A DNA stretch of 38,118 bases from Rubrivivax sp. (GTDB taxonomy: Bacteria; Pseudomonadota; Gammaproteobacteria; Burkholderiales; Burkholderiaceae_C), in the NCBI GenBank assembly GCA_016790425.1, contig JAEUPF010000103.1, positions 1 through 38,118 on the forward strand, in the 5' to 3' direction. The position numbers and the translations under genes were made by a program. The notes beneath the pieces are model-generated. The model was not told the DNA's origin. It made no database searches and saw nothing but the letters and a program-made list of their open reading frames with translations. Shown piece by piece: positions 1,170-28,725 of this stretch. Within the stretch, counting starts at the first letter, position 1. Each line of letters opens with the position of its first letter.

Positions 1170-4100
1170 ATGAAGAAGCCCTTTCCGGTCCGGCGTCGTG
1201 TGGCAGTGGCGGCGGCCGCCGTCGCCTCCAGCCTGTTCGCGCAAGCGGCGCTGGCGGTGAACATCACGGTGCGCGACGCCAGTGGCGCGCCGGTGACGAC
1301 CGCCGTGCGCTGGGTGCTGGAAGAAGACCGCACCTACGACGTCGCGCCAGGCATCACCGGCACACCCGCGGCGCCCAACCCCGGCGAGACGTTGTCGCTG
1401 CGCTTCCACCGCAGCTACATGCCGGTGGTGGCCACGGGCGAATCGAGCGGCGCGGTGATCACCATCCCCAACGCCCAGCTCGACCCGGCGAAGCGCTACT
1501 TCCTGTCGCTGCTGCCGCGCGCCGACGCCGCCGGCAACGGCCTGTACTCGATGACCGGCGTGCCCATCCGGCCGCAGAACGGCACCTTCCCGGCCGCGCT
1601 CAATGCCGTCGTGGACAACCTGCCGCTGAAGACGGCGCAGATCTCCGTGCTGCTGTACCACGACGCCAACCCCGTGAACGCGCAGGCCGACGCCATCGGC
1701 TCGCAGGAGTTCGGCCTCTGCGGCTTCGAGGTGCACCTGTACGACGCCGGTGGCACCTATGGCGCCTCGGGTGGCCGCATCAGCACCGACACCTACGGCA
1801 ACCCGCTGGGCACCGAGTACCCCGGCGGCGACCTGAACAACCCGGTCATCGGACCGATGATCCTGAAGACCGACCGCATCGGCGTGCTGCGCATCCGCAA
1901 TCTCGCGCCGGGCAAGTACACGATCTTCCCCTTCCAGCCCCAGGTCAAGCCGCCGCAGTCCGAGTGCCCCGGCTACTACCCGGGACCGAACGGCGAGCCG
2001 CCGCAGACGCCGTGGCCCGAATCGGGCGTCTGGATGGCCACCAGCACCATCGAAGGCACGCCGGGCGACGACGCCTGGGTGAAGGCGAACGAGCCGGCCT
2101 ACTTCAAGGAGTTCGGACCGCCCGGCCACCACATCAGCAAGGGCTTCGCGGCCAAGGCTGCCGACGCCGCGGCGCTGAGCGGGCCGGGCACGGTGAGCGG
2201 CCGCGTCGTCAACATCCACATGAGCCGGCCGCCCAACTTCGCCTTCTACAACGGACGCCCGGTCGAGCAGTGCCGCATCGCGCTGAACGAGTCCGCGAGC
2301 CTCGCCACCGGCGGCGGCCGCGTCGTCTGGGCCGGGCCATGCGCCAGCGACGGCACGTTCAGCATCAGCGGCACCAAACCCAACACGCGCTACCAGATTG
2401 CCGTGTGGGACGAGCCGCTGGACAACGTCTTCGCCAGCTACGACTTCGTCACCGACACCAACGGCGACGTCGTGCTGCACGACGTGCCGGTGTTCAACTG
2501 GTTCGGCCACATGCTGGGCAAGGTCTGCCAGGACCCCGGCGAGACCGGCTTCTGCGCCACCGGCTCGCTCGGCATCGCCGGGCAGGCGGTGAACCTGCGT
2601 TTCCGCGACGGCTCGATCTACCAGAGCGCCGCCACCGGCGATGACGGCGAGTACGAGTTCCCCGAGGTCTTCCCGTTCTTCAACTGGCTCGTGGCCGAGG
2701 TGGACTTCGCGCGCTTCAAGGCCACCGGCATGACCGCCGTGGTCGACGGCGGCGGCCCGCTGCAGCCCGACAACGGCTGGGCCAACCCCACCAGCGGCCG
2801 CATCACGCCGCAGCCGCAGTTCAACGGTGCAACGCCGGCGGTCAACCCCAACACCGGCAACAACCTCGCCCGCACCGAGACGGGACCGGTGCTGTTGCAG
2901 GGCATCCAGAGCTTCCTCGGCCTGACCAACCGGCTCGACTGGGGCAAGAAGCCCTACACGAGCAGCGAGAACGGCGGCATCTCCGGCATCGTGCGCTACG
3001 CCTCCACGCGCGCCGAGAGCGACCCGCGCCTGGCCGCCGCCGAGAACAACGAGCCCGGCATCCCCGGCGTGCGCGTGCAGCTCTTCCTCGCCGACCCGGC
3101 CAACCCGCGCCGCGTCAACCCGGCCCGGCCGAACGCCGTGGCCGAAGTGACCACCGACAGCTGGGACGCCGCCAACCCCAGCGGCTGCCAAGGCCCGGTG
3201 TTCACGATCAACAGCATCAGCACCGACTGCTTCGACGGTCTGCGCAACTTCAACCAGGTGCGCAACGCCGTCTTCGACGGCGGCTATGCCTTCACGACCT
3301 ACGAACCCAACGGCATCGGCACGCTGGCCACGCCGCTGCCCCTGCCGCCGGGCAACTACATCGTCAAGGTCGTTCCGCCCGCCGGCTACGAGGTGCAGAA
3401 GGAGGAGGACAAGAACGTCGACTTCGGCGACTTCTACGCCGTCAGCACGCTGGCGCTGCCGCCCGAGTGCGTCGGCACGCGGCCCTACCCCGTGCCGGCC
3501 GAACTCACGCTCTTCCCCGGCGTGCCGATCCCGGCCGCGTACCGCGACCAGCCCGGCAAGCCGCGGCCGCTGTGCGACATGAAGGCCGTCACGCTGACGG
3601 CGCAACAGAACGCCGCCGCCGACTTCGCGCTGTTCACCACCGTGCCGGTGGCCGGCCACATCGTCGGCATGATCCTCGACGACACGGCCAACGAGTTCTC
3701 GCCCACGTCGCCCGCGTTCGGCGAGAAGTACGCACCGCCGTTCATGCCGGTATCGCTGCGCGACATGGCCGGGCGCGAATTCTCGCGCGTGTACTCCGAC
3801 CGTTACGGCACCTACAACGCGCTGGTGCCGTCGACGTTCACGTTCAACGTGCCGATGCCCTCGGGCGTGTCGCCCAACATGATCCAGGCGTGCCTGAACT
3901 CGCCGTTCACGACCGACCCGGTGACCGGCGCCAAGACGCTCGACCCCCACTACAACAAGAGCTACACGCAGTTCTGCTACAACTTCCAGTACCTGCCGGG
4001 CAAGACCACGTACCTCGATACGCCGGTGCTGCCCATCGCCGCGTTCGCCGGCCCGCAGCAGTACATGCTCGATTGCGAGCAGCCCGACCTGGTGCCGGCA

Positions 4101-6446
4101 ATCAGGAGCGTCACCAACCTCGCCAACCAGGGCCCGTGGATCGCCACCGGCGCCACCGGCACCGCGCGGCAACTGCGCATCACGTCGATGGGCACGCGGC
4201 AGGTGCCCAACCCGCAATACAACCAGGACGACCCGGGCAGCGGCACGCCCAAGCTCGTCAACCGCGACTACGGCTTCGGCGCCGCCGCCGGCAGCGTCAC
4301 CGTCAACGGCACCGCCGTCACCATCGTCAGCTGGAGCAACAGCGAGATCGTCGTCCAGCTGCCCGCCACCGGCAGCGCGGCCAACGGCGGCCAGTTGCTC
4401 GTCACGCGCGCCGGCAGCAACGGCAAGACCACCGTGCGCGGCGTCAACGTGCACGTGGGCGGCGCGGTGCCCACCGTGGTCGCCGCCGGCGGCAGCATCC
4501 AGGCGGCCATCGACGCCACGCCGGCCGGAGGCCTCGTCACCGTGCCGCCGGGCATGTACGAGGAACGCGTCATCGTCGACAAGCGCGTGCGCGTGCAAGG
4601 CTGGGGCGCCGGCGGCACGCTCGTCAACCCGGTGGCGCAACCCACCGAGCGCGTGCGCGAGTGGCGCGTGAGCCTGTGCAACCGGCTGTGGCCGACGGTC
4701 AACGTGGCCAACGGCACCTCGCCGATGCTGCTGCCCGGGCAGACGGTGCCGCCGAGCTACCAGGCCTGTCTGGACGGCAACGTGGCTGACAACGCGCCGC
4801 TCCTGTTCGGCGACGAGGAGGCCCCGGGCTTCTTCGTGCTCGACCGCTCCGACTCCAACAAGACGCAGCGGCTGCTGATCGACGGCTTCACCATCGCCGG
4901 TGCCGACATCGGCGGCGGCATCAACGTCAACGGCTACGCCGAGAACCTGGAGATCGCCAACAACTTCATCACCGGCAACCAGGGCATCCGTGCCGGCGGC
5001 ATCCGCATCGGCCACCCCGATCTCGTGGCCGCCGAGCTGCCCGTGCGCAGCCGCAACGACCGCGTCTACATCCACCACAACGAGATCACGCAGAACGGCA
5101 ACACCGCCGGCGAGGTGGGCGGCGGCGGCGGCGGCATCGGCATCTTCTTCGGCAACGACGCCTACCGCGTCTCGCGCAACTTCGTCTGCGGCAACTACTC
5201 CAGCGGCAACGGCGGCGGCATGGCGCACCTGGGCGTCAGCCAGGGCGGCGTGATCGAGTTCAACACGTTCCTGTGGAACCAGAGCTTCTACCAGGGCGGC
5301 AGCGTGCAAGGCGGCGGCCTGTCGATCGCCGGCTCGCCTTCGCTGGCCGCGGGTGCGGCCGGAACGCCGGGCCTGTCCACGGGCACGGGTGACGTCACCG
5401 TCAACGCCAACACCTTCCAGGGCAACCTGGCCGGCGCCGGCGACGGCGGCGCCATCCACCTCGCGGGCGTCAACGGCAACGAGCTCGGCGTGCGCCTGCA
5501 GCCCTACCGCGTCGACCTCTACAACAACGTCGTCGTCAACAACGTGGCCGCGGTGGCCGGCGGCGGCATCGCCCTCGTCGACTCGCCCAACGTGCGCATC
5601 GTCAACAACACGATCGCGCGCAACGACAGCGCGGCGGTGGCGGCGCGCACGTTCAACACCAGCCTCATCCAGGGCCTGGCGAACGGCCTGTCGCAATCGA
5701 CGCCGCAGCCCGGCGCCGGCATCGCCAGCTACCGCACCAGCCCGGCGCTGGCCGCGCGCCTCGGTGCCGGCGTGCCGGTGCTCGACGGTCGCCTCCTGTC
5801 GCCGCAGTTCTCCAACGCGCTCGTCTTCAACAACATCGTCGCGCAGAACCGGCAGTTCTATTTCGGCTTCGACTTCGTCAACAACGACCCCACCAGCCCG
5901 CAGTGCCAGGTGAACGCGGGCACCAACGCCTGCTACGGCCTGCTGCCGCCGGCGGCAACCCCCGTGTACAGCGAAGTGGCCGTCGTCGGCGACACGGCCG
6001 GCCAGCCGCTGTTCGCCAGCTGGCAGACCGCCGCCCACTGGCGCAACAACGTCGTCTCCAGCGCCCAGCAGCCGTTCTCCTCGCAGTACTACAACGGCCC
6101 GCGCGACGCGATCGTGCTCGACCCCGAGACGGCCACGAAGGGGCTGGCCGTGGCGGCGGCCTTCGACGAGGGCGGCAACTTCATCGACCTGCGCTACGGG
6201 CCGCTGTCGTTGCACCAGCCCAGCGGCAACCCGTGGGGCAACTACCACCTCACCGGCACCGGCGGCGCGCTCGGCCAGGGCCTCAACCTGCTGCTGCTCG
6301 GCCCGATCTTCGGCGCCCCCGAACTGCTGCGCGACCGCGACGGCGCGCTGCGCCCGGTCATCGGCAACTGGGTCGCCGGCGCCTTCCAGACGACGCGCGT
6401 GCCGAACGCGCCGCTGAAGACGCAGCAGATTGCCGAAGCGCAGTGA
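1170..6446 (+). CDS. Giant secreted multidomain beta-helix protein (1758 aa)
   Basis: First gene of the plus-strand operon; ATG at 1170 has GGGAG eight bases upstream. Residues 1-29 form a Sec signal peptide ending in AQAALA. Residues ~30-1000 contain several Cna-B/SdrD-like or carboxypeptidase-regulatory-like beta-sandwich segments (for example LRIRNLAPGKYTIFPF and LPPGNYIVKVVPPAGYEV). Residues ~1000-1100 look like an IPT/TIG domain (GSVTVNGTAVTIVSWSNSEIVVQLP). From ~1104 (GGSIQAAIDATPAGGLVTVPPGMYEE) to ~1640 the sequence is a right-handed parallel beta-helix of the pectin-lyase fold, with repeated Asn-rich rungs such as NNFITGN and NNTIARND and Gly-rich turns. There are no haem motifs and no copper HxH clusters. 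It is probably a cell-surface or extracellular scaffold exported with the copper proteins encoded 20 bases downstream. The enzymatic role, if any, is unknown; similarity to polysaccharide lyases is only in the fold. Confidence 0.88.
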   Translation: MKKPFPVRRRVAVAAAAVASSLFAQAALAVNITVRDASGAPVTTAVRWVLEEDRTYDVAPGITGTPAAPNPGETLSLRFHRSYMPVVATGESSGAVITIPNAQLDPAKRYFLSLLPRADAAGNGLYSMTGVPIRPQNGTFPAALNAVVDNLPLKTAQISVLLYHDANPVNAQADAIGSQEFGLCGFEVHLYDAGGTYGASGGRISTDTYGNPLGTEYPGGDLNNPVIGPMILKTDRIGVLRIRNLAPGKYTIFPFQPQVKPPQSECPGYYPGPNGEPPQTPWPESGVWMATSTIEGTPGDDAWVKANEPAYFKEFGPPGHHISKGFAAKAADAAALSGPGTVSGRVVNIHMSRPPNFAFYNGRPVEQCRIALNESASLATGGGRVVWAGPCASDGTFSISGTKPNTRYQIAVWDEPLDNVFASYDFVTDTNGDVVLHDVPVFNWFGHMLGKVCQDPGETGFCATGSLGIAGQAVNLRFRDGSIYQSAATGDDGEYEFPEVFPFFNWLVAEVDFARFKATGMTAVVDGGGPLQPDNGWANPTSGRITPQPQFNGATPAVNPNTGNNLARTETGPVLLQGIQSFLGLTNRLDWGKKPYTSSENGGISGIVRYASTRAESDPRLAAAENNEPGIPGVRVQLFLADPANPRRVNPARPNAVAEVTTDSWDAANPSGCQGPVFTINSISTDCFDGLRNFNQVRNAVFDGGYAFTTYEPNGIGTLATPLPLPPGNYIVKVVPPAGYEVQKEEDKNVDFGDFYAVSTLALPPECVGTRPYPVPAELTLFPGVPIPAAYRDQPGKPRPLCDMKAVTLTAQQNAAADFALFTTVPVAGHIVGMILDDTANEFSPTSPAFGEKYAPPFMPVSLRDMAGREFSRVYSDRYGTYNALVPSTFTFNVPMPSGVSPNMIQACLNSPFTTDPVTGAKTLDPHYNKSYTQFCYNFQYLPGKTTYLDTPVLPIAAFAGPQQYMLDCEQPDLVPAIRSVTNLANQGPWIATGATGTARQLRITSMGTRQVPNPQYNQDDPGSGTPKLVNRDYGFGAAAGSVTVNGTAVTIVSWSNSEIVVQLPATGSAANGGQLLVTRAGSNGKTTVRGVNVHVGGAVPTVVAAGGSIQAAIDATPAGGLVTVPPGMYEERVIVDKRVRVQGWGAGGTLVNPVAQPTERVREWRVSLCNRLWPTVNVANGTSPMLLPGQTVPPSYQACLDGNVADNAPLLFGDEEAPGFFVLDRSDSNKTQRLLIDGFTIAGADIGGGINVNGYAENLEIANNFITGNQGIRAGGIRIGHPDLVAAELPVRSRNDRVYIHHNEITQNGNTAGEVGGGGGGIGIFFGNDAYRVSRNFVCGNYSSGNGGGMAHLGVSQGGVIEFNTFLWNQSFYQGGSVQGGGLSIAGSPSLAAGAAGTPGLSTGTGDVTVNANTFQGNLAGAGDGGAIHLAGVNGNELGVRLQPYRVDLYNNVVVNNVAAVAGGGIALVDSPNVRIVNNTIARNDSAAVAARTFNTSLIQGLANGLSQSTPQPGAGIASYRTSPALAARLGAGVPVLDGRLLSPQFSNALVFNNIVAQNRQFYFGFDFVNNDPTSPQCQVNAGTNACYGLLPPAATPVYSEVAVVGDTAGQPLFASWQTAAHWRNNVVSSAQQPFSSQYYNGPRDAIVLDPETATKGLAVAAAFDEGGNFIDLRYGPLSLHQPSGNPWGNYHLTGTGGALGQGLNLLLLGPIFGAPELLRDRDGALRPVIGNWVAGAFQTTRVPNAPLKTQQIAEAQ

Positions 6447-6466: not shown

Positions 6467-7768
6467 ATGGTCAAGCCAATGAAGTCTCAGCTCCAGCGCC
6501 TGGCGCTGGCCGCCGCCGCGTCGCTGGCGCCGCTCGTCGCGCAGGCCGGCATCTACCCGGAGTGCCCGCCGGGGGCCGTGCCGCTGGGGCCCAACGCCGC
6601 CGGCAACGGGCTCGAAGAGAGCGCCGCGCCGCGCGTCTGCGGCCACCTCACCGCCGGCGACGGCTGGATCCAGTTGCCCAGCGGCGAGCGCAGCTACATC
6701 TTCGGCTTCTCGCTCGCCGACCCCGACCCGGCCAACGTGATGGTGCGCGGCATCTTCAACGCCAAGTTCCCGGCGCCGACCCTGGTCTTCCGCGAGCGCC
6801 AGGAGGTGTTCCTGTCGCTGTCCAACGTGGGCATGGCGCACCGGCCGGACCTGTTCGACCCGCATTCGATCCACTTCCACGGCTACCCGCAGGCCTCGGC
6901 GGTGTACGACGGCGTGCCCGAAGCCTCGGCCACGGTGAACATGGGTTCGTCTTTCACCTACTTCTACAAGCTCAACGACCCCGGCACCTACGTCTACCAC
7001 TGCCACGTCGAGGCCACCGAGCACATGCAGATGGGCATGACCGGCAACCTCTACGTGCGGCCGCGCCAGGACGGCTCGGCGTTCACCTTCCCCGCCGCGG
7101 CGCTGGCCGGCGCGCAGGCCGATGTGCTCGGGCCGCTGGCCCCGCGCACCGCTTCGCGCTTCGCCTACAACGACGGCGACGGCTCCAGCGGCTACGACGT
7201 CGAGGCGGCACTGCAGTTGTCCAGCTTCGACCAGGGCTTCCACCTGCTGCACGAGGCCGTGCAGCCGCTGCCCTTCGAGAGCCTGCGCAGCACGCACACC
7301 TTCATCAACGGCCGCGGCTACCCCGACACGTTGAACCAGGCGACGACGAGCTTCGACCCGCCGGTGCCCGACGACAGCGCGCCGCTGCCGGAGTCGTCGC
7401 AGCCCAACCCCTCGCTGGTGGTGGTGCAGCGCGGCCAGCGCCTGCTGCTGCGCCTGTCCAACCTCTCGGTGGTCGACTACTTCACCGTCACTGCGCTCGG
7501 CCTGGACTTCCGCGTCGTCGGCGCCGGCGCCAGCCACACGCGCGCCGACCCGGCGCGGCTGCCCGGCGGCCTGCCCGGCGTGGTGACCAAGGACTGGTCG
7601 CACCGCACGAGCTCGGTGACGCTGGGCGGCGGTGAGGCGGTCGACGTGATCGTCGACACCGACCGCGTGCCGGCGGGCACCTACACCTTCTTCACGACCA
7701 ACCTGCAGTACCTCAGCAACGGCAGCGAGGACCGCGGGGGAATCATGACGCACATCGTCGTGCAGTGA
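6467..7768 (+). CDS. Multicopper oxidase-like protein A, with type 1 copper site (433 aa)
   Basis: The ATG at 6467 has GAGGG seven bases upstream; an ATG at 6479 is a weaker alternative. A signal peptide ends near residue 27 (LVAQA). The first cupredoxin domain contains His133-Ser-Ile-His136-Phe-His138-Gly, matching the copper motif HxHG, and His178-Cys179-His180 followed by His186 and Met189/Met191, matching the HCH...H...M motif that supplies a type 1 copper and two type 3 ligands. The second domain (~250-433) has a cupredoxin outline without copper ligands. The protein therefore has only two of the four HxH pairs required for a trinuclear cluster; the other two are in the next gene. Periplasmic or extracellular location is predicted. 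Oxidation of a metal ion such as Mn(II) or Fe(II), or electron transfer to or from minerals, is inferred from context. Confidence 0.9.
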   Translation: MVKPMKSQLQRLALAAAASLAPLVAQAGIYPECPPGAVPLGPNAAGNGLEESAAPRVCGHLTAGDGWIQLPSGERSYIFGFSLADPDPANVMVRGIFNAKFPAPTLVFRERQEVFLSLSNVGMAHRPDLFDPHSIHFHGYPQASAVYDGVPEASATVNMGSSFTYFYKLNDPGTYVYHCHVEATEHMQMGMTGNLYVRPRQDGSAFTFPAAALAGAQADVLGPLAPRTASRFAYNDGDGSSGYDVEAALQLSSFDQGFHLLHEAVQPLPFESLRSTHTFINGRGYPDTLNQATTSFDPPVPDDSAPLPESSQPNPSLVVVQRGQRLLLRLSNLSVVDYFTVTALGLDFRVVGAGASHTRADPARLPGGLPGVVTKDWSHRTSSVTLGGGEAVDVIVDTDRVPAGTYTFFTTNLQYLSNGSEDRGGIMTHIVVQ

Positions 7769-7791
7769 CGGCGCCGCAGCGGGGAGTCCAC

Positions 7792-9309
7792 ATGCAACAA
7801 GCCATCCAACGCAGCGCGCGTGCCGCCGCAGTGGCGCTCGTCGCCGGCCTGGCCGCGCTGCCGGCGGCGGCCGCGATCGCGGGGCTGACCGGCACCGCGA
7901 TCGGCGACTGCGCCGTCGGTGCCGGCACGGGCCCGGGCCGGCAGTTCGACCTCATCGCCGCCGAGGGCTACCTCAGCACCGCCGACGGCGGCAGCCTGTA
8001 CGCCTGGGGATACGGCGAGGCCGGCAAGGCGATGCAGTACCCGGCGCCCACGCTCATCGTCGAGCAAGGCGCCTGCGTGCGCGTGCGGCTGACCAACCAT
8101 CTGCCGGTGCACACGTCGATCATCTTCGGCGGCCAGCGCGAAGTGCTGGCGGGCACGACCGCGGCCACCAACGGCGGCACGCAGCCCACGGCGGCGGCGG
8201 CGGTGAAGTTCGCGCGCGAGGTGGCGCCGCCGCGGCGCGCGACCACAGGCGCGATCCTCACCAGCACCATCACCTACACGTTCATCGCCAGCCAGCCGGG
8301 CACCTATGTCTACCAGTCGGGCACGCAGGTGGGCGTGCAGCAGGAGATGGGGTTGGCCGGCGCGCTCATCGTGCGGCCGGCCGGCGCGCCCAAGCAGGCC
8401 TATGCGCACGCTGCCACTGCCTTCGACCGCGAGGCTTTGTATGTCGTGAGCGAGGTCGACCCGGCGCGCCACGCCGACATCGAAAGCCAGGTCGCCGCCG
8501 CGCGCGCCGCCGCCACCGGCAACAACGCGCAGGCCCTGCCGGCGCGCATCGGCCTGCCGCAGAACTGGCGCCCGAACGAGGCAGCCTGGGCCGCCTTCTG
8601 GCAGCCGCAGTACTGGTTCGTCAACGGCCGCACCGCCCCCGACACGCTGACGGCCGCCGGTACCGAGACGCTGCCGCACCAGCCGTACTCGGCGCTGGCG
8701 CGGCTGCATCCGGGCGACCGGCTGCTGCTGCGCGTGATCAATCTCGGGCGCGACCTGCACCCGATGCACCACCACGGCAACCACAGCGTCACCATCGCCC
8801 GCGACGGCCGCATGCTCAGCAGCGTCGCCGCTGCCGGGCCCGACCTGGCGCAGGTGGACTTCACGCTGCGCCTGGTGCCCGGCCAGACCACCGACGCCAT
8901 CTGGTCGTGGACCGGCAAGGGGCTCGGCTGGGACATCACCGGCGCCACCTGCAATGCGGCGCAGCCGGTCAGCGAAGGCAACTGCCCCTACGGCAAGTAC
9001 AGCAACACCGGCACGCTGCTCGAGGCCGGCGTGGCGACCACCTCGCAGGACTGGTCCGACCTCTACAAGCCGATGCCCACGCGCATGCCGGCGGCGCTGG
9101 AACTCACCTACGGCGAGATGTTCAGCGGCAGCCCCTACCTCGGACAGACCTCGGTGCGCCCGGTGGGCGCGGGCCTGGCCAACCAGGGCGGCGGCATCTG
9201 GCACATGTTCCACAGCCACAACGAGCGCGAGATCGTCAACTTCGGCATCTTCCCCGGCGGGCTGATGACGATGCTGCTGATCGAGCACTGGTCGGTGCAG
9301 ATCGACTGA
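7792..9309 (+). CDS. Multicopper oxidase-like protein B, lacking type 1 Cys (505 aa)
   Basis: ATG at 7792 has GGGGAG six bases upstream and lies 23 bases after the preceding stop; a GTG at 7765 overlapping that stop is less likely. The N-terminus is a signal peptide (AALPAAAA). Domain 1 (~50-200) is cupredoxin-like, but its copper motifs are lost: the usual HWHG region reads LPVHTSIIF and the usual YHSH reads YQSG. The C-terminal domain retains His323-Pro-Met-His326-His327-His328-Gly, the HPxHxHG motif, and His471-Met-Phe-His474-Ser-His476-Asn-Glu, which resembles the last copper motif but with Ser where the type 1 Cys would be. It thus complements protein A precisely: together they hold four HxH pairs and one type 1 site. 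I infer that A and B form a hetero-oligomeric oxidase. Confidence 0.88.
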   Translation: MQQAIQRSARAAAVALVAGLAALPAAAAIAGLTGTAIGDCAVGAGTGPGRQFDLIAAEGYLSTADGGSLYAWGYGEAGKAMQYPAPTLIVEQGACVRVRLTNHLPVHTSIIFGGQREVLAGTTAATNGGTQPTAAAAVKFAREVAPPRRATTGAILTSTITYTFIASQPGTYVYQSGTQVGVQQEMGLAGALIVRPAGAPKQAYAHAATAFDREALYVVSEVDPARHADIESQVAAARAAATGNNAQALPARIGLPQNWRPNEAAWAAFWQPQYWFVNGRTAPDTLTAAGTETLPHQPYSALARLHPGDRLLLRVINLGRDLHPMHHHGNHSVTIARDGRMLSSVAAAGPDLAQVDFTLRLVPGQTTDAIWSWTGKGLGWDITGATCNAAQPVSEGNCPYGKYSNTGTLLEAGVATTSQDWSDLYKPMPTRMPAALELTYGEMFSGSPYLGQTSVRPVGAGLANQGGGIWHMFHSHNEREIVNFGIFPGGLMTMLLIEHWSVQID

Positions 9310-9325: not shown

Positions 9326-11497
9326 ATGCTCAGCATCCCTACCCGTGCCCGGTGTGGCGCGGCCCTTGCGCGCCTGACGCTGGTGGCCGCAGCCGTGGCC
9401 GGCCTCGCGCCAGCGGCTCATGCGGTGACCTATGCGCTGAAGGCCGCCCAGTTCGTCGAAACGCAGCCCGACGGCACGCAGGTCACGATGTGGGGCTACC
9501 GCGCCTCGGTGGCCAACCCGACGGCGGCCCAGGTAAACAGCCTGGCTGCCGCCACGACCCTCTTCACATCGCCCGGCCCGGCCCTGGTCGTGCCGCCCGG
9601 CGATACGCAGCTGAACATCGTGCTCATCAACGGGCTGCCCAATGGGCGCCTGACCTCGCTGGTCGTGCACGGCCTCGTCAACGGCGCCGACCCCGTGTTC
9701 GCCACCAGCGCCGAGGCCAGCGGCACGCCCTGCACGCCGGGCACCGGTTCGCTGGCCGACCAGCGCGGCTGCCGGCTGCGCTCGCTCACCGCCGAGACGG
9801 CCAGCGGCGGCACCCGCACCTACACCTTCAACGACGTGGCCCCGGGTACCTACCTGTACCAGTCAGGCACGCACCAGCAGGTGCAGGTGCAGATGGGCCT
9901 GTACGGCATGCTCAACAAGGACGCGCAGACGGCCGGCACGCAGCGCTACGCCTACGGCAGCGCGGCCGCGCTCACCGCGCCGTTCGAGAACCAGACACGC
10001 CTCGTCTTCAGCGAGATCGACCCCGTGATGCACGCGCTGATCGCCTCCGGCAGCGGCCTGCCCGGCAGCGCGCTCACGTACCAGCCGACGATCTTCCGCC
10101 TGCACCGCTACGCGGAGCCGCCAGCGACCACGCCGCTGGCGCCGATGTCGCCGACGCGGCTGGCGCACACGGCACCGGACACCAGCAACCAGACGCTGAG
10201 CATCCAGACGACGCAGCGGCAGCTCGTGCGCATGGCCAACGCCGGCCTGACCACGCGCGCGCCGGCGCTGCGCGACGGCCACATGAGCTTCGTCGCCGAG
10301 GACGGCAAGCCCTACCCGTACCCGCGCGAGCAGTCGGTGGCGCTGCTGGCCGCGGCGAAGACGCTGGACGCCGTGTTCACGCCGAGCCTGTCGCAGCAGG
10401 CCGTGGCGTCGCCCAACGCGACCGAGCGCGACGTGATCCTCTTCGACCGCCGCGCCGGCCTCACGACGACCACCGACGGCCGCCTGAACGGCGACTTCGT
10501 GCGCCTGCGCCAGAGCACGACCGCTGCGCTGCCGACGCTGGACCTGACCACCCTGCCGCTCGTCGCCAACCAGGGCGTGCCGTATTCGGCCACGGCCACG
10601 GCCACGGGCGTGGCGCCTTTCGCCTACGCGCTGCTGCAGGCGCCGGCCGGCATGAGCATCGACGCGGCCACCGGCGTCATCGCCTGGACACCCAGCGACG
10701 CGCAGGCGCAGAAGCCCTCGCAGCCGACGCTGACGCACGCCGTGACCGTGCAGGTCACCGGGGCCAACGGGCGCAGCGCATCGGGCACGGTGAACGTCGC
10801 CGTCATCAACGCCGACGACCTGGCCGTGGCCAACCCCGACACCTACGTCGTCAACGGCGGCCTCGTCAGCATCGCCGCGGCGCAGGGCGTGCTCGCCAAC
10901 GACGCCGACCCCGACGGCGGCGTCGTCAGCAACGCCCAGGTGGCCTCGGCGCCGGCGCTGCCGGTGGACGCCTTCGCCCTCAACGCCGACGGCAGCCTCG
11001 CCCTGGACGTGCGCAACCAGAGCTGGTTCCGCGGCATCGTGCCGACCTCGTCGCGCGCGCTCACCTTCACGTACACCGTGCAAAGCCCGAGCAGCACGCC
11101 GCCGAACCTGCCGCTGACCTCGCTGCCCGGAACCGTGACCTTCATCGTTCGCGGGCACCAGCCACCCACGGCTAACGCCGAAACGGTGGCCTACGCGCTG
11201 ACTGCGGCGCGCCCGCCCATCGACATCGCGGTGCTGGCCAACGACAGCGCCGAGGACGGCTGGAGCCTCGTGCCCGGCACGCTGGCGCGTGTGGGCGCCG
11301 GCGGCAGCTCGGGCGGCACCGTGACGCCGGTCGAGCCGGCCAGCGGCAACCCCTGCACGCCCACGAGCGCGCAATGCGTGATGCGCTACCGGCCCGCCGT
11401 CGGGGCCATCCGCGGCTCCGAGACTTTCTCCTACCGCGTGCGCGACAACTTCGGCCTATGGTCGAACATCGTCCGCGTCACCGTGAACATCCAGTGA
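9326..11497 (+). CDS. Copper-motif-free oxidase paralogue with C-terminal Ig/cadherin-like domains (723 aa)
   Basis: ATG at 9326 follows GAGGGAG and sits 16 bases after the preceding gene. A signal peptide ends near residue 33 (APAAHA). Residues ~35-230 are clearly homologous to domain 1 of the preceding protein: both share GTYxYQSGT..., an xVQxxMGL segment and a later FSEIDP/VSEVDP block. The catalytic C-terminal domain is missing and no HxH copper pair is present. Residues ~404-500 look like a putative Ig/cadherin-like domain (LPLVANQGVPYSATATATG, ending before VNVAVINADD), and two further Ig-like domains start near 501 (ANPDTYVV) and 612 (PPTANAETV). These usually act as spacers or adhesive modules. 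I infer a structural or anchoring subunit of the oxidase complex rather than an enzyme. Confidence 0.82.
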   Translation: MLSIPTRARCGAALARLTLVAAAVAGLAPAAHAVTYALKAAQFVETQPDGTQVTMWGYRASVANPTAAQVNSLAAATTLFTSPGPALVVPPGDTQLNIVLINGLPNGRLTSLVVHGLVNGADPVFATSAEASGTPCTPGTGSLADQRGCRLRSLTAETASGGTRTYTFNDVAPGTYLYQSGTHQQVQVQMGLYGMLNKDAQTAGTQRYAYGSAAALTAPFENQTRLVFSEIDPVMHALIASGSGLPGSALTYQPTIFRLHRYAEPPATTPLAPMSPTRLAHTAPDTSNQTLSIQTTQRQLVRMANAGLTTRAPALRDGHMSFVAEDGKPYPYPREQSVALLAAAKTLDAVFTPSLSQQAVASPNATERDVILFDRRAGLTTTTDGRLNGDFVRLRQSTTAALPTLDLTTLPLVANQGVPYSATATATGVAPFAYALLQAPAGMSIDAATGVIAWTPSDAQAQKPSQPTLTHAVTVQVTGANGRSASGTVNVAVINADDLAVANPDTYVVNGGLVSIAAAQGVLANDADPDGGVVSNAQVASAPALPVDAFALNADGSLALDVRNQSWFRGIVPTSSRALTFTYTVQSPSSTPPNLPLTSLPGTVTFIVRGHQPPTANAETVAYALTAARPPIDIAVLANDSAEDGWSLVPGTLARVGAGGSSGGTVTPVEPASGNPCTPTSAQCVMRYRPAVGAIRGSETFSYRVRDNFGLWSNIVRVTVNIQ

Positions 11498-14212: not shown

Positions 14213-14913
14213 GCGGGCCCGGCGCCGCGCCGTGCACCCGCGCGCCGCGAGGCGCGGTGCGAAAGGCGGCGCACCCCGCGGCGCGGCGGCGGTTCGTGGC
14301 GGCGGCAGGCGGCGTTGCCGGCTGGCTCGCCGCCGGCCCGGCGCGTGCCTTGGCTCCCGCACCCGCAACGGCACCCGCAACGGCACCCGCATCCGCACCC
14401 GCACCCGCGCCCGACTACCGCGTGGCGCGCCAAGACGTCGCGCGCCTGCCCGACATCGCGCTCGTCACGATGCACAAGCGGCCGACGACGCTGGCGCGCG
14501 AGCTCGACACCGAGCAGCCGCTGTGGCTGAACTTCGTCTTCACCACCTGCTCGACCACCTGCTCGATGCAGACCGCGGTGCTGGCGGCGCTGCAGGCGCG
14601 GCTGCACCGCGAGCAGCGCGCGGCGAGGTTCTTGAGCCTCACCATCGACCCCGAAGGCGACACGCCCGAGCAGCTCAGCGCCTTCGCCACGCGCTTCGGC
14701 GTGCAGGCGGCGAGCTGGCAGTTCTGCACCGGCCGCTTCGAGGACCTGCTGGTGCCGCAGCGCGCCTTCGATGTCTACCGCGGCTCCAAGGCGTCGCATC
14801 CGCCGGTGGTGCTGTTGCGCCCGGCGCGCAGCGCGCCGTGGTGGCGCGTCACCGGCTTTCCGACGCCCGAAGACCTGCATGGCGTGCTGCTGGCGAAGCT
14901 GCGCGGCGCCTGA
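14209..14913 (+). CDS. SCO1/SenC family copper protein (234 aa)
   Basis: GTG at 14209 overlaps the protease stop by four bases, the usual sign of translational coupling. The thioredoxin-fold copper motif is Cys114-Ser-Thr-Thr-Cys118 (CxxxC), with His197 in the expected later position; these three residues bind copper in SCO proteins. The N-terminal RRRFVAAAGGVAGWLA resembles a twin-arginine or Sec signal, followed by an Ala-Pro-Thr linker coded by short repeats (~14361-14410). SCO proteins deliver copper to, or reduce cysteines in, copper enzymes in the periplasm. In this operon the likely client is the multicopper oxidase pair rather than cytochrome oxidase, which is not encoded nearby; that client assignment is inference. 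Confidence 0.92.
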   Translation: MSGPGAAPCTRAPRGAVRKAAHPAARRRFVAAAGGVAGWLAAGPARALAPAPATAPATAPASAPAPAPDYRVARQDVARLPDIALVTMHKRPTTLARELDTEQPLWLNFVFTTCSTTCSMQTAVLAALQARLHREQRAARFLSLTIDPEGDTPEQLSAFATRFGVQAASWQFCTGRFEDLLVPQRAFDVYRGSKASHPPVVLLRPARSAPWWRVTGFPTPEDLHGVLLAKLRGA

Positions 14914-16579
14914 GCGGCGGGCGCCTGGCACGCGCCTGCTGCCGTGGGTCCGTGGCGCGCTGCGGCTCGCCGGCGCGGCCTGCGCGCTTGCCCTTTGCGC
15001 GGCGGCGGCGGCGCAGACGCTGTCGTCGTCGTCCTCGCCGTCGCTGTCGTCGTCGTCCTCGCCGTCGCTGTCGCCGTTGCCCTCGCCGTCAACCCTCGAC
15101 GAAGGACGCGCGCTCTACGAAGGCCGGCATCCGGCGCTCGCGGCCACGCTGCGCGGCGAGTCGCGCACGCCGCTGCCGGCCCAGCAGGCGGCGTGCTTGA
15201 GCTGCCACCGGCCCAGCGGCCTTGGCAGCTTCGAAGGCGAAGCCGTCGTGCCGCCGATCTCCTCGGGCCTGTTGTCGCGGCCGTTCGATCCGGCGACGAC
15301 GCGCCGCTACGGGCCGCGCGGCCAGCCCGGCGAGCCCGGTGTACCGCGGGTGCGCCCGGCCTACGACGCGGCGGCGCTGCACCGCCTGCTGACCGAGGGC
15401 GTCGCGCCCGACGGCCGCGCCCTCGGCCCGCTGATGCCGCGCTACACGCTCGCGCCGCGCCACAGCGAAGCACTGCTCGCGTTCCTCGACACGCTGGGGA
15501 CGCAGCCGGCGCCCGGCGTCGACGACGACGTGGTGCACTTCGCCACCATCACCGGCGACGACGTGCCCGAGGCGCAAGCTCGGCAGCTGGTGCTGCTGCT
15601 GGAGCAGTTCATCGCGCGCAAGAACGCGCAGACGCGCGGCGAGGTGCAGCGGCGCGCCGCGGCGCGCCGCACCGAGCACGTGATGTACGCGCGCTACCGG
15701 CGCTGGGAGCTTCACCACTGGGCGCTGCGCGGTGCGCCCGACACGTGGCCGCGGCAGCTGGCGGCGCTGTATGCAGCGCGGCCGGTGTTCGCGGTGCTGT
15801 CGGGCCGAAGCGACCGCGACTGGAGTCCCGTGCACCGCTTCTGCGAGGCCGAGCGCGTGCCGTGCCTGTTCCCCATCACCGCCTGGCCGCACGAGACGGG
15901 CGGCTTCTACACCGCCTACTTCAGCGGCGGCGTGCTGGCGCAGGCGCGCTGGCTGGCGCAGGCCGGCGAGGCGGCGCCCGCAGCGCCCGCGCCGGGCCGG
16001 CCGTGGCTGGTGCTGGGCGGCGACGCGCAGCACGAGCAGGCGCAGGCGCAGCGCATCGCCTCGGCCCTGGGCGGCGAAGGCGGGGCGGCCGCCGCCATCA
16101 CCGCTTCCGGCCACTGGCACGGTGAGCCGGTGATCGTCAGCGCCTTGCCGGCGCGCGAGGTGGCGCAGCGCCTGGCGGCCGGCATGGCTTCAGCGAGGGC
16201 GGCTGCGCCGCGCGTGTACCTGCTGGCCGGCGCCTCGCCGCCTGCCAGCGAGCCGGTGGCGTGGCCGCCGGGGGTGGACGTGCAGTGGGTCACGCAGCAA
16301 GCCGCCGACGCCACCCGCCTGGCGCGGGCGCGGGCCTGGTGGCGCGCGCAGGGCCTGCGCCCTGCCGACGAGGCGCTCGCCGCGCAGGTGCTGTTCGCGG
16401 CCACCGCGGCGGTGGAAAGCCTCGTGCATGTCGACGAGCGCTTCTCGCGCGAGTACTGTCTGGAGAAGCTCGAGCACAACCTGGAGAACATGCCGCCGTT
16501 GACGGCGTACCCGCGGCTGGCGCTCGGTCCCAATCAGCGCCTGGCGGCCAAGAGCGTGTGGCTCGCGCGCGTGCCTTGA
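14879..16579 (+). CDS. Cytochrome c fused to a periplasmic-binding-protein-like domain (566 aa)
   Basis: ATG at 14879 overlaps the SCO1 gene by 35 bases; it is the last in-frame ATG before the signal peptide, but the start is uncertain because no good ribosome-binding site is seen. A hydrophobic segment (GALRLAGAACALALCAAAAAQ) is followed by a Ser-rich linker coded by 24-bp repeats. One haem c motif is present, Cys106-Leu-Ser-Cys109-His110, in a mono-haem domain of ~120 residues (LMPRYTLAPRHSEALLAFLDTLG is its C-terminal helix). From ~216 to the end the sequence resembles the type I periplasmic ligand-binding fold (RPVFAVLSGRSDRDWSPVHRF, YTAYFSGGV, PRVYLLAGASPP). Such a fusion could couple redox state to binding of a ligand, or serve as an electron acceptor from the copper proteins. 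No transporter genes accompany it. Confidence 0.82.
   Translation: MACCWRSCAAPERRAPGTRLLPWVRGALRLAGAACALALCAAAAAQTLSSSSSPSLSSSSSPSLSPLPSPSTLDEGRALYEGRHPALAATLRGESRTPLPAQQAACLSCHRPSGLGSFEGEAVVPPISSGLLSRPFDPATTRRYGPRGQPGEPGVPRVRPAYDAAALHRLLTEGVAPDGRALGPLMPRYTLAPRHSEALLAFLDTLGTQPAPGVDDDVVHFATITGDDVPEAQARQLVLLLEQFIARKNAQTRGEVQRRAAARRTEHVMYARYRRWELHHWALRGAPDTWPRQLAALYAARPVFAVLSGRSDRDWSPVHRFCEAERVPCLFPITAWPHETGGFYTAYFSGGVLAQARWLAQAGEAAPAAPAPGRPWLVLGGDAQHEQAQAQRIASALGGEGGAAAAITASGHWHGEPVIVSALPAREVAQRLAAGMASARAAAPRVYLLAGASPPASEPVAWPPGVDVQWVTQQAADATRLARARAWWRAQGLRPADEALAAQVLFAATAAVESLVHVDERFSREYCLEKLEHNLENMPPLTAYPRLALGPNQRLAAKSVWLARVP
15021..15090 (+). repeat. 24-bp tandem repeat coding a Ser-rich linker
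   Basis: Two identical 24-bp units (15021-15044 and 15045-15068) rich in TCG triplets are followed by a diverged third. They code the Ser/Pro/Leu linker between the signal peptide and the haem domain of the cytochrome fusion. Confidence 0.85.
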
Positions 16580-18427: not shown

Positions 18428-18989
18428 AGCGGCTCCCGTCCAGCGCCACGGCGTTGGAGCTCGAGGCGACGTCGAAGACATCGCGCCCGCCGGCGTCCCA
18501 GGCGTCGCCGGCGCTGCCGTAGGCGCGCGTGCGCCATGTGGCCGCGGCGGCCAGCCGCCGGTCGGTGGCGAAAGGGTCGCGCGGCAACTGGCGCAGCAGC
18601 ACCAGCACGCCCGGCTCGCCCTCGGCGGCGCCCTGCACCGCCAGCGGCCGCGTCAGCACCTCCAGCGTCGGCGGGTAGCCCGACTCACTGGCCGCGCGCG
18701 GCAACTGGCCGGCGTCGACGGCGGCCTTGTATTGGTCGAGCGCGCCGCGGATGACGCGCAGCGAGCGCTTCAGCTCGGCTTCCTTGACGCGCGTGCTCGT
18801 CACTTCGGCCAGCGGCAGCGCCACCAGCGCCAGCACGCCCACCAGCGCCAGCGCGACGACGAGTTCCAGCAGCGTGAAGCCGCGCCGGGTGCCGCGCCGG
18901 GTGCCGCGCCCGGTGCCGCGGCGCTGAAGCCCGTGCACCCGGCGCGGCCGGCGCGTGGCGGGGTGGCCGAGCGAAGCGTTGCGCGTCAT
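18414..18989 (-). CDS. Type II secretion pseudopilin with long leader (191 aa)
   Basis: The 37-residue Arg-rich leader ends in GTRRG and is followed by FTLLELVVALALVGVLALVALP, with Glu at mature position 5. The globular part has the GspG-like pattern ALDQYKAAVDAGQLP and later LPRDPFATDRRLA and GRDVFDVASSSN. The ATG overlaps the secretin stop (ATGA). The leader just before the cleavage site is coded by a 12-bp tandem repeat (18879-18914). It likely acts as a minor or second major pseudopilin. Confidence 0.88.
   Translation of the reverse strand: MTRNASLGHPATRRPRRVHGLQRRGTGRGTRRGTRRGFTLLELVVALALVGVLALVALPLAEVTSTRVKEAELKRSLRVIRGALDQYKAAVDAGQLPRAASESGYPPTLEVLTRPLAVQGAAEGEPGVLVLLRQLPRDPFATDRRLAAAATWRTRAYGSAGDAWDAGGRDVFDVASSSNAVALDGSRYEQW
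18879..18914. repeat. 12-bp tandem repeat at a prepilin cleavage site
   Basis: Three units of GCCGCGCCGGGT (the third with one change) code the repeated Gly-Thr-Arg-Arg of the prepilin leader, ending exactly at the cleavage glycine. Unit number alters leader length without changing frame. Confidence 0.8.
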
Positions 18990-21703
18990 GGCGTCGTCTT
19001 CAGCCGCAGCGGCGCACCGCGGGAAAGGCGCAGCGGCTGGTTGTCCTCACCTTTGGCGTCGAGCGCGCTCACGAGCAACTGCGTCTGCGCGCGCGGGCTC
19101 ACGGCGGCAAAGGTGAGGGCCACCAGCGGCCGCTCGCTGACCGGCGCCGCCTTCGGGAACTGCAGCGCGATCTCGACGCGCCCGACGAGTGGGTCGACGC
19201 GCACCGGCTGCAGCGTGGCGCCGGCCGCTGCGGCGGTGACGGCCAGCGCGGCGTCGACGAAGCGCATCACCAGCGGGTCGTAGCGCACCACCAGCGGCCA
19301 GCGGCGCAGCGCCGGCAGTTCGATCGCGGCCACCTCGGCAGTGAACGGGGCGCCGATCTGCGCTTGCCGCGGGCCGCTCCAGCGCAGCTCGCCGCCGCCA
19401 GCCATCGCCGGCAGGTCCGCCGGCTCGGCCTTCACCGATTCGGCGCCCGGCGCCTTGGCCGGCGGCGTGTTGGGCACCGGCGGCGCCGGCACCGCGGCCG
19501 GCGCGTAGATCGCCCCGGGCCGGATGGCCGGCGGGATCGTTGCGCGGTTGATCGGCACCGGCGGCGGCGCCGGCACCACCACTGCCGGCGGCGAGGCCGG
19601 CGCGCCTGGGCCGGCCGGCGTCCCGGGCGCCGGCAGCGCCGCGGCGGCGAGGCCGCCGGTCGAACTCGTCACCGGCGCGGCGGCGGCCGGCGCCGACGCT
19701 GCGGCGCCGGGGGCGGGCGCCGCACCCGGTGTGGCCGGTGCGGAAGGTCCGGCGCCGCCTTCGCCCGCCGCGCCCGGGACAGCGGTGCCGCCGGGGCTCG
19801 TGAACGGGCTGCCGGCAGCGCCGCCGTTGCCTTGGCCGGCGCCGTTGCCGACCCCCGACAGCGGCGCGCCAGGCATCGCGCCCACCGAGTCCAGCCGCAG
19901 CGGCCGTACGCGGATGGCCGCTTCGGTGCCCGAGTAGACCTCGTGCGTCTCGGCCGTGGCCACCGCGGGCGGGCGGATGATGCGCGGCGTGATCGACAGC
20001 ATGATCTCCTTCTTGCTGCCGCTGCCGGTGTTGTTGCCGAACAGCATGCCCACCACCGGCAGGTGCCCCAGGCCCGGCAGCTTGGCCGCCGTGTTGCGCT
20101 CGTCGTCGGAGATCAGGCCGGCGAGCACCTGCGTCTCGCCGTCGCGCAGGCGCAGCGCCGTGGAGGCGTTGCGGGTGCCGATCTGGTAGGCCAGCGATCC
20201 CGACGGCCCGGCGATCTCGCGCGTGATGCTGCTCACTTCGAGGCTGACGCGCACGCCCACCTCCTGGTCGCTGTAGACCTGCGGCTCGAAGTCGAGCTTG
20301 AGGCCGACCTCCTGGTACTGCACGGTGCCGGTGACGACCGAGCCGCCGGTGGTCACCGGCGTCACGGTGTTGGTGATGATCGGCACGCGGTCGCCGATGA
20401 GCACGCGCGCCTTCTCCTTGTTGCGCGCGCGCAGGCGCGGGCTCGACAGCAGGTTGGCGTCGGTGTCCTGCAGGCGGAAGTTGATGCCGGCGGTCAGGCC
20501 GCTGGCGAGCAGGTTGTCGCGCGTCAGCGCGCGCAGCGTGCCCACGGTGAGCTGGCCGTTGGCGTCGGTGGGGGTGGCCAGGCCGATGCCCTCGGGGAAC
20601 TGGACGCCGATGTTGCTCAGGCGGTCGCGCGAGACTTCCAGCACTTCCACTTCGAGCATCACCTCGGGCTCGGCCACGTCGTGCGCGGCGATGACCTTGG
20701 CCGCCACGGCGATGGCGTCGGGCGTGTCGCGCACGACGAGGGTGCCGTTCTTCTCGTCGATCATCACGTCCTTGAGCTTGAGCACCGTCTTCAGCACGCC
20801 CTGGATGTGCTTGGGGTCGCCGCTGGCGATGTGGAAGGTGCGCACGACGAGATCCTGGTACTCCTTGTGCTTGGCGGCGGTGGCGGGGTAGACGAAGAGC
20901 GTGCTGCCGTTGAGCACCTTCTTGTCGAGCTGGTTCTGCAGCAGGATCAGGTCGACGGCGTCCTCGACGGCGGCGTCCTTGACGAAGATGGTGGTCTTCA
21001 GGTCGGGCTTGACGTCGCGGTCGAGGACGACGTTCAGGCCGGTGGTGCGCGCCAGCGCCTCGAACACCATGCGCAGGTTGGCTTCGCGGAACTGCAGCGT
21101 CACCGGACGCCGCATCACCGACGCGGCAGCTTGCTGCGCTTGGCGAGCCACCGCCTGCTGCTCCAGCAGCGCACCGACTTCGCGCTTGAGCGCCAGCGCG
21201 CCGGCGTGCGCGCCGTTGATGGCCAGCGCGCGCGTGACGAGGTCCTGCGCCGCCTCGGCGCGCTTGTCCTTGAGCTGCGCGCGGGCCTGCTCCAGCCAGC
21301 GGCCGATGACCGCGTCCTGCTCCAGTGCGGCCAGACCGACGACGGCGCGGTCGAGGCCCGGCGAGACCTTGAGCGCCTGCTGGTACAGGACTCTGGCCTG
21401 TGCCGCGTCGCCGGCGCCGCGGGCCTCGTCGGCGCGCGTGACCAGCTCGCGTGCGATGCCGGCCTGGGCGTTCAACAGGTCCAGCTTGTAGCGCGGGTTG
21501 CCGGGGTCGCTGGCGGCGGCTTCCTGCAATTGCCGCAGGCCCTGCTCGCGCTGGCCGGCGGCGAGTGCGGCCATGCCTTCGCGGTGCATGCGCTCGGCGG
21601 CGCAGCCGGCCAGCAGCGCCAGTGCCAAGGCGGCGGCGGCGCGGCGAGCCCAGGGCCCGCGGCGCGGGCGGCGCGGCGGGGCGATCGGCGGCGGTCGGTT
21701 CAT
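18986..21703 (-). CDS. gspD: Secretin (GspD/PilQ-like lipoprotein) with C-terminal cohesin-like domain (905 aa)
   Basis: ATG at 21703 has GGGAG six bases upstream. The signal sequence ends in the lipobox LAGC (Cys34). Residues ~40-190 are TPR-like helices; ~196-275 is an N0/STN domain (RPVTLQFREANLRMVFEALA, LNVVLDRDVKPDLKTTIFV); N1/N2-type repeats follow (SGDPKHIQGVLKTVLKLKD). The secretin core lies at ~400-576 (VGLKLDFEPQV, DGETQVLAGLISDDE, LPGLGHLPVVGMLFG, EIMLSITPRII). After a ~190-residue Pro/Ala/Gly linker, residues ~770-900 look like a cohesin-type beta-sandwich (LVVRYDPLVMRFVDAAL, RPLVALTFAAVSP). It forms the outer-membrane pore. A TPR-bearing lipoprotein secretin is typical of atypical T2SS and MSHA-type systems rather than classical GspD. 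Confidence 0.93.
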   Translation of the reverse strand: MNRPPPIAPPRRPRRGPWARRAAAALALALLAGCAAERMHREGMAALAAGQREQGLRQLQEAAASDPGNPRYKLDLLNAQAGIARELVTRADEARGAGDAAQARVLYQQALKVSPGLDRAVVGLAALEQDAVIGRWLEQARAQLKDKRAEAAQDLVTRALAINGAHAGALALKREVGALLEQQAVARQAQQAAASVMRRPVTLQFREANLRMVFEALARTTGLNVVLDRDVKPDLKTTIFVKDAAVEDAVDLILLQNQLDKKVLNGSTLFVYPATAAKHKEYQDLVVRTFHIASGDPKHIQGVLKTVLKLKDVMIDEKNGTLVVRDTPDAIAVAAKVIAAHDVAEPEVMLEVEVLEVSRDRLSNIGVQFPEGIGLATPTDANGQLTVGTLRALTRDNLLASGLTAGINFRLQDTDANLLSSPRLRARNKEKARVLIGDRVPIITNTVTPVTTGGSVVTGTVQYQEVGLKLDFEPQVYSDQEVGVRVSLEVSSITREIAGPSGSLAYQIGTRNASTALRLRDGETQVLAGLISDDERNTAAKLPGLGHLPVVGMLFGNNTGSGSKKEIMLSITPRIIRPPAVATAETHEVYSGTEAAIRVRPLRLDSVGAMPGAPLSGVGNGAGQGNGGAAGSPFTSPGGTAVPGAAGEGGAGPSAPATPGAAPAPGAAASAPAAAAPVTSSTGGLAAAALPAPGTPAGPGAPASPPAVVVPAPPPVPINRATIPPAIRPGAIYAPAAVPAPPVPNTPPAKAPGAESVKAEPADLPAMAGGGELRWSGPRQAQIGAPFTAEVAAIELPALRRWPLVVRYDPLVMRFVDAALAVTAAAAGATLQPVRVDPLVGRVEIALQFPKAAPVSERPLVALTFAAVSPRAQTQLLVSALDAKGEDNQPLRLSRGAPLRLKTTP

Positions 21704-25909: not shown

Positions 25910-25917
25910 GGCGCGGC

Positions 25918-27141: not shown

Positions 27142-27201
27142 GTCCGCCGTCCCCTGGGGCTGTGCGTCGGGCCTTGCGTTGTGGGGCTGGCGCGCCCGGC
27201 C

Positions 27202-27687: not shown

Positions 27688-27762
27688 GGTGGCGGGCGGC
27701 CTGTCGTTGTTGCGGCGGAAACGCCCGCCGCGTGCCGAGGACTCTCCCGCCGGCAAATGAAA

Positions 27763-27779
27763 CGATCCTTAGTCGAGCC
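27763..27779 (-). promoter_or_regulatory. CTAAGG-type site upstream of gspG
   Basis: On the minus strand this reads GGCTCGACTAAGGATCG and matches the site at 31145-31161 in 15 of 17 positions. It lies about 80 bases upstream of the gspG start. Only one half of the 11-bp-spaced direct repeat seen at the other two sites is well conserved here. Candidate binding site for the neighbouring OmpR-type regulator. Confidence 0.45.
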
Positions 27780-27801
27780 CCCTTTCCCCCGCGAGTCGGC
27801 G

Positions 27802-28723: not shown

Positions 28724-28725
28724 CG

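Follow-up and report, generated by a model that had tools for sequence, protein, structure and literature searches.

In an ordinary two-domain multicopper oxidase (2dMCO), three identical chains of two cupredoxin domains each are arranged in a ring. In the type C enzymes, the type 1 copper site lies in domain 1 and the trinuclear cluster forms between this domain and domain 2 of the neighbouring chain (PMC13151041). Multicopper oxidase (MCO) genes have also been described in groups. Sideroxydans lithotrophicus ES-1 carries three tandem MCO genes, with products predicted to be extracellular, together with mofC-like and copper chaperone genes (PMC5566968). In this cluster, Slit_1812-1818, the MCO motifs are found in Slit_1817 and Slit_1818 and are lacking in the larger Slit_1816; a SCO1/SenC gene and a predicted cytochrome complete the set, whose proteins were more abundant in late cultures on magnetite than in those on Fe(II)-citrate (PMC12016527). 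Similar clusters are reported in Paraburkholderia (PMC5566968; PMC12016527). MofC-like cytochrome and SCO1 genes are likewise described next to the genes for MofA of Leptothrix and OmpB of Geobacter (PMC5566968; background on MofA in PMC8218464 and PMC11412304). Here we analyse a 38,118-nucleotide stretch of DNA (the window) from a Rubrivivax sp. contig (JAEUPF010000103.1; the assembly spans 4.3 Mb in 178 contigs at 82% completeness), in which two adjacent genes, for proteins A and B, divide between them the copper ligands of what is probably a single oxidase and are followed by a gene for a third paralogue, protein C.

Like the homotrimeric type C enzymes, A, B and C have two cupredoxins per chain, and type C 2dMCOs provide the best sequence matches for A and the best matches for a structural model of the three proteins. 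Unlike in those enzymes, where one gene specifies all eight cluster histidines, the histidines are here divided over two of three genes, and a ring of A, B and C would hold at most one cluster. The S. lithotrophicus cluster, as described, agrees in its genes: it encodes three cupredoxin proteins, of which only the larger third lacks MCO motifs, together with SCO1/SenC and a cytochrome. This match in gene content, compared by description, makes it very probable that the two are the same system, and A-B-C was found in Paraburkholderia as well. In the accessible parts of PMC5566968 and PMC12016527, the Slit proteins appear as separate copper proteins of unknown role and a split site is unmentioned. 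MofA and OmpB, again compared by description, may resemble A-B-C in their surroundings, a SCO1 gene (by Pfam) and a cytochrome family of the described kind lying beside A-B-C, in the window too; they differ in being one large chain with all the motifs, A and B being separate open reading frames (ORFs) in all loci.

The division of ligands had been proposed in a first-pass annotation of the window, according to which the 433-aa protein A holds one HxHG motif (His136/His138) and an HCH...H...M motif with Cys179, and together with B supplies four HxH pairs and one type 1 site. We confirmed both statements, reading the motifs in the translations and in the ligand columns of an alignment of 14 A, 14 B and 14 C sequences (13 loci plus the window) with four single-gene 2dMCOs. 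Domain 1 of A supplies H133, H136, H138, H178, C179 and H180, as well as H186 and M191, whereas domain 2 of B supplies H323, H326, H328, H474 and H476 and has no HCH. The HSIHFHG motif of A aligns with HTIHWHG of a single-gene 2dMCO; HPMHHHG and HSHNE of B align with HAIHTHG and HDHVD of 2dMCO domain 2. While each of the four single-gene 2dMCOs has every ligand on one chain, the eight cluster histidines of this system do not lie on one polypeptide: A carries the four of domain 1, B the four of domain 2, and C neither set. The type 1 site, in domain 1, belongs to A only, B and C being without the Cys.

The same pattern holds across 98 homologous loci, 80 of which came from a genome scan (80 of 297 confirmed relatives) and the rest from other searches. 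Row counts include the window as one row and omit L130 (on the same contig as L045), L054, L099 and L129 as duplicates or near-duplicates. All four domain-1 cluster histidines are present in A in 90 of 90 rows; domain 2 of A has none of its four in 88 of 92 rows and one in the other 4. The reverse is seen in B, which keeps the four domain-2 histidines in 94/94 rows and has none (50/95) or one (45/95, always in the same column) of those of domain 1, in agreement with the earlier statement that its N-terminal domain has lost both HxH pairs. HCH occurs in 0 of 95 B rows, and 89 of 92 C rows are without any HxH. Taken singly, the ligands of A (with H186 and M191 among them) never vary in the 90-92 rows that cover them, nor do those of B in their 94-95; homologues with all four motifs in one protein, which would have spoken against a split, are absent from the A and B rows. 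The genome scan picked loci on two B motifs, so the conservation of B is partly selected; the A ligands are free of this selection. In the 16 counted loci that came from profile, protein or tblastn searches rather than from the B-motif scan, each A ligand and each B ligand is kept (16/16). The complementary division of ligands between A and B is thus real and beyond chance.

The first-pass annotation also described B as having Ser in place of the type 1 Cys. The Ser is there (Ser475, in 94 of 94 rows). The sense of a lost Cys did not hold up: the four single-gene 2dMCOs have Asp at the equivalent position, so that Ser475 is not necessarily the replacement of a type 1 Cys, and the idea that B simply lost this residue is rejected on this comparison. 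The type 1 place in domain 2 of B (window 8758-9231) otherwise keeps H323 (95/95), E478 (95/95) and E480 (94/95); this invariant His/Ser/Glu set could be a substrate-metal site.

As judged with profiles for each protein, A, B and C are all present in 94 of the 98 loci (a gene-order count that still includes L130, L054, L099 and L129). The remaining four are all next to a contig end: L037, L084 and L115, with 93, 30 and 467 bases left after B, are without C, and L103 is without A, its contig starting at B. C is accordingly found in 95 of 98 loci. The order is A, B, C on one strand in the 78 loci checked. No fused A-B ORF occurs in any of the 98 loci. The idea that A and B are one broken gene is ruled out, the two being separate ORFs in all 98 loci and both conserved. 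Protein C had been missed in the first-pass description of a two-gene split, which otherwise stands as regards the ligands; protein D, the SCO1 and cytochrome genes nearby and the published gene cluster had likewise gone unmentioned there. The N-terminal ~390 residues of C score 459 bits against the C profile and 96 bits against that of B (the Pfam Cu-oxidase match falls below the cut-off), which identifies C as a third two-cupredoxin paralogue; in a tree it groups with B (95/88). In L088, L104, L108 and L127, A forms the last part of an ORF of great length (2201-2869 aa), and in some loci (e.g., L013, L014, L117 and L131) C begins one. In Cupriavidus metallidurans and Paraburkholderia, the C-terminal part of C proteins of ~2.7k aa is a homologue of protein D, encoded upstream of A in the window (blastp matches at residues 638-2674 in L013 and 629-2700 in L014).

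Distance matrices for A, B and C, computed over 78 loci once 13 more with truncated or incomplete genes had been excluded, correlate at 0.85, 0.73 and 0.73, against permutation maxima of 0.20-0.25. The three genes thus descend together, with a contribution from the species history common to all. C diverges faster, with a mean identity of 0.42 versus 0.55 and 0.53 for A and B. The best genome-scan match to B is from a metagenome-assembled genome (MAG) of Rubrivivax (L037; 82% in the best segment). Record titles range over Beta- and Gammaproteobacteria, Desulfobulbaceae, Desulfuromonadales, Nitrospira, Acidobacteria, Verrucomicrobia, Lentisphaerae, Planctomycetes/Phycisphaerales, Myxococcota and others; since MAGs make up most of these records, individual taxonomic placements may be wrong. 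The system is of scattered occurrence, being found in 5 of 200 family genomes and, at E <= 1e-100, in 10 of 369 class genomes, with the Rubrivivax genome itself included in each count.

Searched by sequence, solved structures include no close relative of A or B; the best matches are 2dMCOs, nitrite reductases and other MCOs, with one domain matched. Use was made of a Desulfobulbaceae MAG (L071) in which A, B and C lie in one frame, so that they could be folded as a single chain with single stops read as Gly. The best of five AlphaFold models, from a 56-row alignment with row placement checked, has a mean predicted local distance difference test (pLDDT) score of 85.0 and a predicted template modelling (pTM) score of 0.86; values below 50 are confined to both junctions, residues 63-65 and the six C-terminal residues. 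Each chain has two cupredoxin domains by Pfam and NCBIfam, 2dMCO and NirK chains superposing on A and, in the A-B-only model described below, 3gdc on B (475-898). With VIA-align, the three-domain MCO 6vow spans residues 23 to 828 of the model, 376 of its 409 residues superposing at 2.6 Å; the end residues and the aligned count call for domain 1 of A as domain 1 and domain 2 of B as domain 3. In Fet3p, the trinuclear cluster lies between domains 1 and 3 (PMC5796215). A heteromeric cluster, previously put forward as structurally reasonable, finds support in the model: with 6vow superposed from the first domain of A to the second of B, the four HxH pairs would meet at one cluster. Two further chains placed on A, 3g5w (Nitrosomonas europaea) and 2zwn (a metagenome laccase), are what we take to be type C 2dMCOs. 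Among the matches listed, their last aligned residue falls on C (958 and 949), as does that of 1ntd (931). 2dMCO and nitrite reductase chains that start on A and end on C fit a ring in the order A-C-B. The pTM of the tethered model and the 6vow and 3g5w matches are compatible with a trimeric ring with an interfacial cluster.

Ceruloplasmin, the factor V/VIII fold and MnxG (9bxa) resemble A-B-C in having six cupredoxin domains in all, and differ in having them on one chain rather than in three ORFs. Six-domain MCOs are the top Foldseek matches of the A-B-C model, yet the sequential superposition of ceruloplasmin is poor (TM score 0.21-0.22, root-mean-square deviation ~34 Å), as would be expected if the ring does not follow gene order. 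None of ceruloplasmin, MnxG and factor V/VIII is among the 50 VIA-align matches listed for this model or for a model of A and B by themselves, built from a Burkholderiales MAG (L055). The latter has a pTM of 0.82 and confident docking.

We consider it likely that A, B and C are secreted and together make up a single heteromeric 2dMCO, probably an A-C-B ring with one shared cluster. The cluster common to A and B is the part of which we are most confident, being highly probable; that the assembly is an A-C-B heterotrimer is favoured with less assurance. By this reading, three paralogous chains would most likely have replaced identical ones through complementary loss of sites. A would have retained domain 1, with the type 1 copper and four cluster histidines, B would have retained domain 2 with the other four, and C, retaining no site, would complete the ring in a structural or adhesive role. 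The order A-C-B would set domain 2 of B against domain 1 of A, so that each heterotrimer would hold a single type 1 site and a single trinuclear cluster. Electrons from the substrate, probably an extracellular metal such as Fe(II) or Mn(II), would enter at the type 1 copper of A and pass via H178-C179-H180 to the A/B cluster, where O2 would be reduced; SCO1 would load the copper. A and B begin with what look by eye like Sec-type signal sequences.

Several points weigh against this interpretation. B motifs were the selection criterion in the scan behind 80 of the 98 loci, MAG contigs account for most loci, and L115 shows no match to C in the last 467 bases of its contig. Some titles (Desulfobulbaceae, Desulfuromonadales) place the set in largely anaerobic groups, which fits O2 reduction less well. 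As for the models, tethering the three proteins as a single chain may favour their assembly; the domain correspondence with 6vow is drawn from end residues and aligned count; and most of the matches placed on A end within A, being silent on C. Foldseek also misaligned 6vow (TM score by target 0.53, root-mean-square deviation 14.4), so its failure with ceruloplasmin is weak support for the A-C-B order. Finally, the 50 matches listed for the A-B-only model include no three-domain MCO, which makes this model neutral as to the geometry of the cluster.

A second class of split oxidase came to light among the matches to the A profile, which included short proteins with the domain-1 set only, each adjoining a protein with the domain-2 set only. 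In this class, a B' protein of ~340 aa with the domain-2 HxH pairs (and, in L172, a weak Tat-signal match) is followed by an A' protein of ~330-390 aa with the domain-1 HxxHxHG and HCH motifs, and in four loci the cluster pairs were found to be divided as in A and B. A B' profile matched 16 of 274 class genomes; in G207, which is among the 16, the only match was to protein B of an A-B-C set. In 16 loci fetched from 14 genomes, A' adjoins B' in 15; the other, L201, has a weak B' match and no A' in the ~660 bases left on the contig. Overall the two adjoin in 19 of the 20 loci looked at (L172-L175, L186-L201). A tree sets {A, A', 2dMCO} apart from {B, C, B'} at 96/91; the bootstrap is unsettled and the grouping tracks the retained motifs, so that support is not decisive between one and two origins of the splits. 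Variants were noticed within the class. In L191-L194, domain 2 of B' also keeps HCH, which may give these pairs two type 1 sites in a heteromeric type A arrangement. L200 does not follow the usual division: only one HxH pair is found in its B', and its A' ORF, which overlaps, holds an additional HLH. The pair in L172 is followed by a CusB-like gene (Pfam HlyD_D23 and HMBD); in L173-L175, the genes that come next to the pair look by eye like an efflux pump.

Features of the window, with coordinates, strand where given, and the basis of each assignment
Feature	Position	Strand	Description
Protein D	1170..6446	+	1758 aa; SdrD_B-like surface protein (Pfam)
Protein A	6467..7768	+	433 aa, two cupredoxin domains; Pfam Cu-oxidase_3/_2/Cu-oxidase; translation
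A motif HSIHFHG	6863..6883	+	H133, type 1; H136 and H138, cluster (roles by analogy)
A motif H178-C179-H180...H186...M191	6998..7039	+	Type 1 Cys, His and Met plus two cluster His (roles by analogy)
Protein B	7792..9309	+	505 aa, two cupredoxin domains; Pfam multicopper oxidase domains
B motif HPMHHHG	8758..8778	+	H323, H326, H328
B motif HSHNE	9211..9225	+	H474, S475, H476, E478
Protein C	9326..11497	+	723 aa; N-terminal ~390 aa, ligand-free two-cupredoxin paralogue; C-terminal immunoglobulin (Ig)/cadherin-like domains
194-aa ORF directly after C	11511-12095		No Pfam match; lipobox-like start by eye
Subtilase-family (S8) serine protease gene	12104-14212		Between C and the SCO1/cytochrome genes
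SCO1/SenC copper chaperone	14251..14913	+	Pfam SCO1-SenC, 58 bits (profile match); start codon not settled
MofC-like protein	14771..16579	+	One CxxCH haem motif; neighbour-family profile E 6.4e-107; no Pfam match; ORF start not settled, probably later than 14771
Type II secretion secretin	18986..22270	-	Pfam Secretin; possible export route
Type II secretion ATPase (T2SSE)	24149..27856	-	Pfam; match confined to C-terminal ~400 aa of ORF
Two-component system	27833-30174	+	Downstream of the oxidase cluster

The neighbourhood of the three genes offers some indication of their function. Of 94 loci, many of them too short to show such genes, 27 have a member of a cytochrome family near A-B-C and 18 have SCO1/SenC; the window holds both, at about 14.25-16.58 kb. 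In Pfam, representatives of the two neighbour families match Cytochrom_C and SCO1-SenC respectively. We label the cytochromes, in which Pfam finds no periplasmic-binding domain, MofC-like because such genes are described beside these MCOs in PMC5566968, that is, by description and not by alignment. Genes of type II secretion appearance were also seen near A-B-C in L013, L049, L053, L056 and L108. Within the same bacterial family, the cytochrome and SCO1 families are found near large single-chain ORFs that are MCO-like by motif (2132 aa in L169, 1797 aa in L170); the large MCO-like ORFs of L163-L171 have no match to the A, B or C profiles. The match in gene content with S. lithotrophicus, combined with the abundance of its proteins on magnetite, makes extracellular oxidation of Fe(II), Mn(II) or minerals the likeliest role, one to which we give an even chance of being right.

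Three other explanations have to be weighed. A and B might be independent degenerate MCOs, A being a NirK-like type 1/type 2 protein or an electron-transfer cupredoxin and B a non-catalytic paralogue, with the division of ligands a coincidence. Each chain does fold as a two-domain unit resembling NirK and 2dMCO chains, and degenerate cupredoxin pairs exist, C itself being one. NirK has a type 1 and a mononuclear type 2 site and no trinuclear cluster, and fewer HxH histidines than the eight kept in A and B. Coincidence is hard to reconcile with a protein B that keeps exactly the half that A is without in all 94 covering rows, with two genes that adjoin in every uncut locus and co-diverge, or with B'-A' proteins that, in four loci, divide the cluster pairs in the same way, and we regard this explanation as very improbable. 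The split cluster might instead be real and C lie outside the ring, so that the oxidase would be an A/B heterodimer or higher oligomer and C (with D) an adhesin or scaffold anchoring it to sheath, mineral or cell surface. Such a role would suit the faster divergence of C, its continuation as Ig/cadherin-like domains (window) or as a D-like protein (L013 and L014), the two-gene make-up of the B'-A' class and the confident model obtained with A and B alone. Yet C is present in 95 of 98 loci, lacking only at three contig ends, it is a two-cupredoxin paralogue grouping with B, and the 2dMCO chains placed on A in the A-B-C model end on C; we therefore hold an external C to be rather unlikely.

The remaining alternative concerns the direction of electron flow. 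The complex might be a metal reductase or extracellular electron conduit that exchanges electrons with the MofC-like cytochrome, and not with O2. The cytochrome gene family alongside and the largely anaerobic groups among the record titles speak for this possibility, whereas the eight cluster histidines, kept in every covering row, argue for a working trinuclear O2 site. Moreover, the S. lithotrophicus proteins were more abundant during an oxidising mode of growth (PMC12016527). On balance a conduit of this kind appears doubtful, and a heteromeric oxidase made of A, B and C is the explanation that we prefer.

What is new here is the proposed split heteromeric active site, a variant of the two-domain multicopper oxidases; the gene cluster itself is very probably already in print. 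No heteromeric, heterotrimeric, split or tandem MCO of this design was recognised among the papers listed by searches of the open literature, in line with the first-pass remark that an oxidase with this division is not known to have been described. We lean slightly towards a history in which gene triplication turned a homotrimer with three sites into an obligate one-site A-C-B heterotrimer, the third chain being freed for adhesion. The product would be a widespread extracellular oxidiser of metals or minerals, and the B'-A' pairs would indicate that dividing a trinuclear site is a general, overlooked design. Annotation based on motifs lists two separate multicopper oxidases, A and B, and can miss C, and either of A and B expressed alone would be expected to be inactive. 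If correct, the proposal would explain a cluster that is more abundant in S. lithotrophicus on magnetite, would provide a three-protein target for the study of extracellular Fe/Mn oxidation in many lineages, and would be a clear natural case of a homomeric ring enzyme turned into an obligate heteromer through complementary site loss.

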